Shown one piece after another: positions 30,989-33,182 of a DNA stretch of 64,000 bases. How positions within the stretch are numbered: the stretch's first letter is position 1; every line of letters begins with the position of its first letter. The notes under the pieces are model-generated. The model did no database searches, was not told the origin of the DNA, and worked only from the letters and a program-made list of their open reading frames with translations. A program made the translations under genes and the position numbers. Source of the DNA: Formosimonas limnophila (GTDB lineage: Bacteria > Pseudomonadota > Gammaproteobacteria > Burkholderiales > Burkholderiaceae); assembly GCF_014652675.1 (NCBI RefSeq), contig NZ_BMZG01000005.1, positions 1 through 64,000 on the forward strand, read 5' to 3'.

Positions 30989-31525
30989 ATGACCGACACA
31001 AACACCACCCCTATCAATGACGAAACAGAGCAGCTAACACAAAAAAGTGCCTTAACCATGCTTGGCGTGGCGTTGGGTTTGGCTGCAGGCCCGTTGATTT
31101 TGCTAATTTTGCTGGCAAAATCAATGGCAGACAGCAACCCAGGCCCCGATGACCCAATGAATCCCGAAAACATCGCCCAGCGCTTACAGGCAGTCGGCGG
31201 CTTTGTACTCGTGCCCAAACCCAAAGGCCCACAAACAGGTCAACAAGTCTATGAAAGTCTGTGCACCAGCTGCCACGCAACAGGAACCAGTGGCGCACCA
31301 AAAGTTGGATCTGCCGACTGGGCACCACGCATAGGCAAAGGTTTTGATACCTTATTCAAGCATGCGACCGAAGGCTTTAACCAAATGCCCGCTCGCGGTG
31401 GCAACCCCAACCTATCTGACTTAGAAATCAAACGTGCCATCGTTTACATGGCCAACAAATCTGGCGGCAGCTTCGAAGAACCAAAGGATGAAACGGCCAC
31501 AGACAGCACCAGCGCCGCACAGTAA
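30989..31525 (+). CDS. Membrane-anchored class I cytochrome c (c5-like)
   Basis: A 178-residue haem protein, probably an electron carrier facing the periplasm. A single hydrophobic segment (about residues 24-44) anchors it. The haem site is Cys92-X2-Cys95-His96 (CTSCH), and Met133 in FNQMPARGG is the likely sixth ligand, a spacing typical of cytochrome c5. The tail is Asp/Glu/Thr-rich. Its partner, for example a terminal oxidase, cannot be told from the neighbours. Confidence 0.88.
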   Translation: MTDTNTTPINDETEQLTQKSALTMLGVALGLAAGPLILLILLAKSMADSNPGPDDPMNPENIAQRLQAVGGFVLVPKPKGPQTGQQVYESLCTSCHATGTSGAPKVGSADWAPRIGKGFDTLFKHATEGFNQMPARGGNPNLSDLEIKRAIVYMANKSGGSFEEPKDETATDSTSAAQ

Positions 31526-31627: not shown

Positions 31628-31655
31628 TTGACATTAAAACCAAAACGCGTATAAT
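31628..31655 (+). promoter_or_regulatory. Consensus sigma-70 promoter of a small RNA gene
   Basis: TTGACA (31628-31633), 16-nt spacer, TATAAT (31650-31655). Both hexamers match consensus exactly. It lies 100 bp beyond the cytochrome gene and is followed not by a gene start but by a set of hairpins and a terminator, so it should drive an untranslated RNA starting near 31662. Confidence 0.85.
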
Positions 31656-31661
31656 ACAAGT

Positions 31662-31755
31662 CAGGCGTATCGCCTCCCCTGCTTTTCCTCCCTAAGCAGG
31701 GTGGTCATTCATAATGACGTTATTCCCCAAGTCCTTGGACTTGGGGCTTTTTTTT
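31662..31755 (+). ncRNA. Predicted small regulatory RNA with anti-Shine-Dalgarno loop
   Basis: About 93 nt from a perfect promoter to an intrinsic terminator, with no plausible reading frame. Four hairpins follow one another: AGGCG/CGCCT (31663-31675, 3-nt loop); CCCTGCTT/AAGCAGGG (31677-31701, loop TTCCTCCCT); GTCAT/ATGAC (31704-31718); and the terminator CCCCAAGTC/GACTTGGGG (31725-31746) with T8. The second loop is complementary to AGGGAGGAA, so it could pair with ribosome binding sites. Alphaproteobacterial cuckoo RNAs expose a comparable CCUCC-rich loop; whether this is homologous or convergent is unknown. I do not recognise it as 4.5S, 6S, tmRNA or RNase P RNA. Confidence 0.78.
31725..31755 (+). 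terminator. Intrinsic terminator of the small RNA
   Basis: 9-bp perfect stem CCCCAAGTC / GACTTGGGG with a CTTG loop, followed one base later by T8. A long terminal U-run is also typical of Hfq-bound small RNAs. Confidence 0.92.
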
Positions 31756-31844: not shown

Positions 31845-33182
31845 ATGAGAAAAACCTTAAAAATCACCCCGAGCACCGGCCAAACCACTCGCCAACCCCT
31901 GCGCGGCAAAAACAGAAACAACCAAGCTGCCGCCAACGCACGCATCAGCCCAACAGAACCACACAAAAAAAGCAACCGCCATACAAGCAACAAGCCTCCG
32001 AGACGCGACGGTGATAAACCACGTAACTTCTCAGACCGTCCACGCCGCAGCTTCGACGACAAGCCAAAGCGAGATTTTGGCGACAAGCCACCTCGGCGCG
32101 ATGGTGACAAGCCGCGTGACTTCTCAGAACGTCCGCGCCGCAGCTTTGATGACAAACCAAAACGTAACTTTAGCGACAAACCACCTCGACGCGATGGTGG
32201 CAAACCGCATGACTTCTCAGACCGTCCGCGCCGCAGCTTTGATGACAAACCAAAACGTGACTTTGGCGAGAAATCGCAGCAAAGCAATGCCAACGACACT
32301 ACCCCTTGGGGCACACCTTTGACACGCACTACCACCAGCCGTAGCAGCACCCCAAACCCGAGTAAAAGCTTTCAAGAACCACGTCGACACGGCAAAATGC
32401 GTGATGAACAAGGTCGTCCGATTCGGAAAGTTGCGCCGCGCTTGGCTCCCGCCGACGCTGGCATCCGCCTGTCCAAACACCTCTCAGACCAAGGCCTTTG
32501 CTCACGCAGAGAAGCTGACGAGTTTATTGAAAAAGGCTGGGTTACAGTGAATGGTCAACGCGCCACTCTCGGCCAGCGCATCACACCAACAGACAAAATC
32601 CAAGTTGCCAAACAAGCACAACGCGCCCAAGAATCACGCGTGACCATTCTCATCAACAAACCCGTCGGGCTTGTCTCAGGCCAAGCTGAAGACGGCTACG
32701 CACCTGCCGCTTCACTCATCACGCCCGAGAATCATTGGGCAGGTGACAGCAGCGGATTGTTGTTTGAACCCAAACACCTACGTGGCTTAGCGCCCGCTGG
32801 ACGCCTGGATATTGATTCTGTTGGTCTGCTCGTCCTCACCCAAGACGGTCGCGTCGCCAAAACCCTGATCGGCGACAAAAGCGATGTGGACAAAGAGTAC
32901 CTTGTGCGCGTCGAAGGCTCATTATCAGACGAAGGGCTGCGCTTACTCAATCACGGCCTCTTGCTCGACGGTGTGCCACTGCGCCCAGCCAAAGTCAGCT
33001 GGCAAAACGAAGATCAACTGCGCTTCGTTCTCACCGAAGGTAAAAAACGCCAAATCCGCCGCATGTGCGAACTCGTCGGATTACACGTCGTTGGCCTCAA
33101 ACGCATCCGCATCGGTCAAGTCTTGCTCGGTGATTTACCAACGGGGCAGTGGCGCTATTTGGGTGATAATGAGGGGTTTTAA
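31845..33182 (+). CDS. RsuA/RluB/RluF-family 23S rRNA pseudouridine synthase with repeat-rich N-terminus
   Basis: A predicted rRNA pseudouridine synthase of 445 residues. The catalytic half begins with an S4 RNA-binding domain (SKHLSDQGLCSRREADEFI, about residue 209) and has the catalytic aspartate in APAGRLDIDSVGLLVLT (about Asp325), then LTEGKKRQIRRMCE. The first 190 or so residues are basic and disordered, with three 31-residue tandem repeats rich in Arg, Lys, Asp and Pro. Such tails are seen on some betaproteobacterial homologues. The exact uridine modified is not predictable. The ATG at 31845 follows a TATAAT at 31807 with a poor -35. Confidence 0.87.
   Translation: MRKTLKITPSTGQTTRQPLRGKNRNNQAAANARISPTEPHKKSNRHTSNKPPRRDGDKPRNFSDRPRRSFDDKPKRDFGDKPPRRDGDKPRDFSERPRRSFDDKPKRNFSDKPPRRDGGKPHDFSDRPRRSFDDKPKRDFGEKSQQSNANDTTPWGTPLTRTTTSRSSTPNPSKSFQEPRRHGKMRDEQGRPIRKVAPRLAPADAGIRLSKHLSDQGLCSRREADEFIEKGWVTVNGQRATLGQRITPTDKIQVAKQAQRAQESRVTILINKPVGLVSGQAEDGYAPAASLITPENHWAGDSSGLLFEPKHLRGLAPAGRLDIDSVGLLVLTQDGRVAKTLIGDKSDVDKEYLVRVEGSLSDEGLRLLNHGLLLDGVPLRPAKVSWQNEDQLRFVLTEGKKRQIRRMCELVGLHVVGLKRIRIGQVLLGDLPTGQWRYLGDNEGF
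31995..32273 (+). repeat. Three 93-bp tandem repeats inside the pseudouridine synthase gene
   Basis: Units start at 31995, 32088 and 32181, each encoding PPRRDG-(D/G)-KP then a FS-(D/E)-RPRRSFDDKPKR core and F-(G/S)-(D/E)-K. The copies differ mainly by silent and a few conservative changes, so they are in-frame duplications kept at protein level. Copy number may vary between strains. Confidence 0.9.

Follow-up and report, generated by a model that had tools for sequence, protein, structure and literature searches.

What is encoded between the c-type cytochrome gene and the rluB-like pseudouridine synthase gene of the window (the whole stretch of 64,000 nucleotides analysed here, to which all positions refer), and what controls its expression? 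The original prediction, made from the letters alone, placed there an unannotated small RNA (sRNA) gene with a perfect sigma-70 promoter, four hairpins and a T8 terminator within 31628-31755, a loop resembling an anti-Shine-Dalgarno (anti-SD) sequence, and no reading frame. Inspection of the region confirmed these structural elements (Table 1), and open reading frames of at least 80 amino acids overlapped only the last two bases of the RNA. The promoter ranked first among the four promoter-like sites in 2.5 kb, a region in which shuffled sequences gave 1.6 such sites. The 94-nt RNA folded at -38.5 kcal/mol, with the MFE structure identical to the centroid, and none of 200 shuffled sequences was equally stable. 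Transcription running on into rluB was also considered, and is disfavored by the strong terminator and by the change of the downstream neighbor among relatives. There is good support for a stand-alone sRNA gene whose anti-SD-like loop is exposed. Separately, near-identical repeats (DKPPRRDGDKPR-FSDRPRRSFDDKPKR) were found to make up the extension that the rluB-like protein has at its N terminus (window 31960-32280).

Table 1. Features of the sRNA locus and its neighbors in the window
Feature	Position	Strand	Basis or remark
sigma-70 promoter, TTGACA (31628-31633)-N16-TATAAT (31650-31655)	31628..31655	+	12/12 consensus match
anti-hemB family sRNA, ~94 nt	31662..31755	+	fold z = -5.5, RF02837 match; start expected at ~31661-31662 from promoter spacing
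hairpin 1, AGGCG-UAU-CGCCU	31663..31675	+	fold; family-conserved, outside Rfam model
hairpin 2, perfect 8-bp stem (31677-31684/31694-31701), 9-nt loop UUCCUCCCU (31685-31693)	31677..31701	+	fold; stem covaries within genus
hairpin 3, GUCAUU-CAU-AAUGAC	31704..31718	+	fold and covariation
intrinsic terminator, 9-bp stem (31725-31746), 4-nt loop, then C and T8 (31748-31755)	31725..31755	+	fold
c-type cytochrome gene (PF13442)	30989..31525	+	upstream neighbor kept in Hydromonas and G026; marks new location
rluB-like pseudouridine synthase gene (S4 and PseudoU_synth_2)	31845..33182	+	downstream neighbor, not conserved in genus

Conservation, family and location of the RNA

The exact pattern of the 24-nt core was found in Hydromonas duriensis DSM 102852, in one more MAG of Hydromonas and in four others assigned to Burkholderiaceae/Burkholderiales, by which the window was taken to be of the Hydromonas type. 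When eight sequences from Hydromonas and sister genomes were aligned, 97% of the structure cells paired, and two-sided changes were observed in 8 pairs spread over all four helices, a number reached by none of 500 shuffles and compared with 1-3 in slid controls. The loop and the segment UUUUCCUCCCUAA were invariant across the eight. Covariation of the stems and an unchanged loop had been proposed in advance as a check, and both were found in these close relatives, the covariation in all four stems. Among 164 homologues of the order, hairpin 1 (at least 5 bp) directly preceded the core stem in 133 (11% in shuffles), with 83 distinct stems, and CTCCCT was retained in 163, a figure that is biased upwards because the pattern used to locate the homologues demanded CTCC.

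The proposed Rfam search gave a definite family. In the whole window cmscan returned a single match, anti-hemB (RF02837) at 31675-31755, which covered the full length of the model (positions 1-81 of 81), with E = 6e-11 for the genome and no second such match there; the score, 50.6 bits, barely exceeds the gathering score of 49.5. The window RNA also has the trait of the family, a CCUCCCU loop on a GC-rich stem (UUCCUCCCU on 8 bp). The designation "unannotated" was therefore wrong as to the family, which Rfam already contains and which was found in 198 of 300 sampled genomes of the order. A second conserved sRNA-like element of Hydromonas (CACTGAACCCTCTTCTCTTTTAGGAATAAAAGAGAA and a terminator; L038, G004:C1:2175992-2176070; L039, G001:C260:14959-15036) matched RF02837 weakly and may be another small RNA.

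Within anti-hemB, an expressed and Hfq-bound transcript is established for the B. cenocepacia member ncS04 alone: a 105-nt RNA was detected, its 3′ end was confirmed by RACE and Hfq binding was reported (PMC5688073). Speaking against the RpoE-based explanation favored below, the level of ncS04 did not differ significantly in any of the conditions tabulated, and few sRNAs of B. cenocepacia responded to a 20-min exposure to SDS (PMC5688073). In the literature searched, outside subscription journals, we found neither a function nor a regulator for anti-hemB; no paper dealt with RF02837, with an sRNA at hemB-engB, or with anti-hemB in connection with RpoE. The window RNA shares with anti-hemB/ncS04 the full-length covariance-model match, the CCUCCCU loop, the hairpin order and the terminator, but it lies behind cytochrome c and not between hemB and engB, and it has a sigma-70 promoter instead of an ECF02-type motif.

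The double-hairpin/toxic sRNAs of RF02278 (ncS27, bdhR1; Bordetella S17) are likewise short and have a terminator hairpin, and their unpaired CU-rich segments complement ribosome binding sites (RBS); overexpression of ncS27 retards growth (PMC5688073), and S17S represses its targets via CU-rich RBS-complementary sites (PMC11722255). However, they have only two hairpins and another sequence, and the window RNA reached 20 bits where the cut-off is 50, by which score ncS27 and S17 are to be regarded as a different family. The comparison with cuckoo RNAs made in the original prediction does not extend to kinship: the alphaproteobacterial anti-SD sRNAs (cuckoo-type, NfeR1; PMC10746234) share the exposed anti-SD motif but are another class and serve as an analogy only, and no alphaproteobacterial sRNA family in Rfam matched the window RNA at E <= 1.

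The usual anti-hemB site, which is not part of the Rfam model, has the divergent hemB upstream and engB downstream; both flanks were present in 112 of the 164 loci and one of them in 13 more (125/164 in total). The window copy is flanked by cytochrome c and rluB instead, and a c-type cytochrome gene was found upstream in all seven loci of Hydromonas and the sister genus (G026) and in no others among the 164. Because hemB is not adjacent, the RNA cannot be a cis-antisense RNA of hemB here, and therefore action in trans is supported. The different neighborhood, the RF02837 score near the cut-off and the weak 20-bit similarity to RF02278 would also suit a Hydromonas RNA that is no orthologue of anti-hemB but a separate anti-SD sRNA beside cytochrome c, convergent or paralogous. 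This is very unlikely in our estimation, since the alignment with RF02837 is full length, hairpin 1 stands right before the core stem as elsewhere with the order of the four hairpins unchanged, and these genomes hold no further match above the RF02837 cut-off.

The family promoter and the RpoE system

Most anti-hemB homologues were preceded by GGAACT-N16/17-TCTKA, mostly 35-43 nt before the core/loop. This sequence is the RpoE/ECF02 promoter consensus. The consensus is taken in part from a Bordetella study (PMC3490749), according to which SigE, an RpoE, recognizes promoters of this class and transcribes both that of rpoH (fam) and rpoHP3 of E. coli. The strict pattern GGAAC[TC]-N16..19-TC..A occurred in 88 of the 164 loci; shuffled sequences gave 0.15 on average, the reverse strand none and other regions 0-1. 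A relaxed motif score of at least 8 was reached in 121 of 150 loci of RpoE-positive genomes, compared with 1.5% in shuffles. The -10 positions that were not used in scoring were mostly T followed by T or G, like TCTGA/TCTTA. For the comparison with RpoE-negative genomes, only those at least 95% complete were used; the motif was present in 136 of the 150 RpoE-positive loci, being missing from fourteen, and in 0 of 10 loci of RpoE-negative genomes, a difference for which the Fisher p-value overstates independence and is only indicative because the RpoE-negative lineages are few. Hydromonas/G026 represents one event, G266 another and G192 perhaps a third, and the absence of RpoE in G192 may be an assembly gap.

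The autoregulated rpoE promoter was dropped as a control because few genomes have the motif upstream of rpoE (2 of 30 by the strict pattern), and rpoH was taken instead. The same kind of motif preceded rpoH in most RpoE-positive genomes, and not in Hydromonas, G026 or G006. Genome-wide searches with the strict pattern gave very few matches, often the sRNA alone, and therefore no regulon was drawn. In one small-genome family (f18; L064, L138, L141), in which RpoE is present, another conserved block, TGTCTTGGACATA, was found at the anti-hemB promoter region.

The promoter region of the sRNA sits between the divergent starts of hemB and the sRNA, and therefore its conservation could serve hemB. 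Together with the lack of the motif at rpoE itself in most genomes, this would fit an ordinary anti-hemB RNA, with GGAACT as some other conserved element that belongs to the divergent promoter of hemB or binds a regulator, and with a Hydromonas promoter that arose by simple drift. We consider this unlikely, because the motif points to the sRNA, mostly at the distance given above, with the spacing and -10 sequence of the ECF02 kind and no occurrence on the other strand, and because the same kind of motif is found at rpoH, both being missing where RpoE is missing. From these comparisons we infer that anti-hemB is, in most Betaproteobacteria, an RpoE-dependent sRNA family in vivo, a connection that is apparently undescribed.

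RpoE (TIGR02939) and RseA (RseA_N, PF03872) were absent from the six Hydromonas genomes (G000-G005) and from G026, whereas RpoE is near-universal elsewhere in the order (258/300). Another ECF-type sigma appears to persist in Hydromonas/G026. No GGAACT/ECF02 motif was found at the sRNA in the window, the six Hydromonas genomes and G026, and none at rpoH where this was checked; the other sRNA copies of Hydromonas/G026 had sigma-70-like sites matching at 7-10 of 12 positions, the window copy being the best.

Some further observations concern neighboring lineages and rpoH. The RpoE-negative G266 has five anti-hemB matches, two of them ~100 nt apart, and three of its loci (L113-L115; C10 at ~707 kb and ~721 kb, C1 at ~1.099 Mb) are without the GGAACT motif; relatives of G266 with a divergent RpoE also lack it. 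At rpoH of Hydromonas (G000, G004) and G006, the RpoE-type promoter is replaced by a CIRCE-like AGCACTC...GAGTGCT followed by AAAATA (L298, in G000:C5, ~160 nt upstream of the match to rpoH at 206584; L295; L291). G006 (L030) has the RpoE gene, but RseA was not detected in it, and neither its sRNA nor its rpoH is preceded by the motif; it may represent an intermediate stage in the loss of the RpoE system.

The anti-Shine-Dalgarno loop and the origin of the Hydromonas RNA

The proposal of an anti-SD translation regulator holds as far as the exposed loop is concerned, and the mechanism is plausible, if unproven. The extended loop complement TAGGGAGGA did not occur 2-9 nt before an ATG in the genome of the window and occurred so once in six related genomes; therefore, the simple model of binding to GGGAGG ribosome sites has no strong target here. 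The invariant CCUCCCU loop and the Hfq binding of a relative suggest pairing with Shine-Dalgarno regions, and the RpoE link points towards targets connected with the envelope without demonstrating them.

As a local target ptsI had been named. GAGGGAGAA does lie upstream of its GTG start, and this site gave the best loop duplex of the 47 window genes (-12.9 kcal/mol). Nevertheless, the bases of the site are HPr coding sequence, specifying Gly-Glu-Gly-Glu at the HPr C-terminus, which explains the match and leaves ptsI a weak candidate. ptsI is moreover 11 kb distant, and the invariance of the loop across hosts suggests many targets rather than one, so that a dedicated anti-SD regulator of ptsI is highly improbable.

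The explanation we regard as quite probable is that the RNA is the Hydromonas member of RF02837, a family normally driven by RpoE, and that it was relocated and rewired to sigma-70 after the loss of RpoE. Its basis is computational (family, structure, covariation, motif, joint absence of motif and RpoE, relocation), and from it we infer RpoE dependence in vivo, the order of events, constitutive expression, the block of translation and the targets. The window RNA would be a short, Hfq-type, trans-acting anti-hemB RNA, whose loop most likely pairs with the Shine-Dalgarno regions of mRNAs and blocks their translation. In most Betaproteobacteria the gene, between hemB and engB, would be read from a promoter served by RpoE (sigma-E, ECF02). 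RybB, MicA and MicL are sigma-E-dependent sRNAs of enterobacteria, and anti-hemB would be their betaproteobacterial counterpart by regulation, not by descent; the likeness lies in the RpoE control deduced for most betaproteobacterial members, but no sequence relation is claimed, and the Hydromonas copy would no longer be under RpoE. The ancestor of Hydromonas and its sister genus would have lost RpoE/RseA, and the sRNA would have moved beside the cytochrome c gene and gained sigma-70 promoters, of perfect consensus in the window, thereby becoming independent of envelope-stress sigma control. We also find it fairly likely that anti-hemB is a conserved RpoE-regulon sRNA of Betaproteobacteria, for which Hydromonas provides a natural experiment in which the sigma factor was lost, the sRNA relocated and rewired to sigma-70, the sigma-E promoter of rpoH lost and the anti-SD RNA kept.

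The sRNA family was known, and the relocated, promoter-switched form and the testable link of the family to RpoE are, apparently, undescribed. The conserved ECF02 promoter names the likely regulator of anti-hemB and predicts when the RNA is made, by which the question of its function is reduced to a simple rpoE experiment. The retention of the RNA after the loss of its regulator and away from hemB argues for action in trans on targets that are needed outside envelope stress, and its retention away from hemB in Hydromonas argues that the name anti-hemB is misleading.
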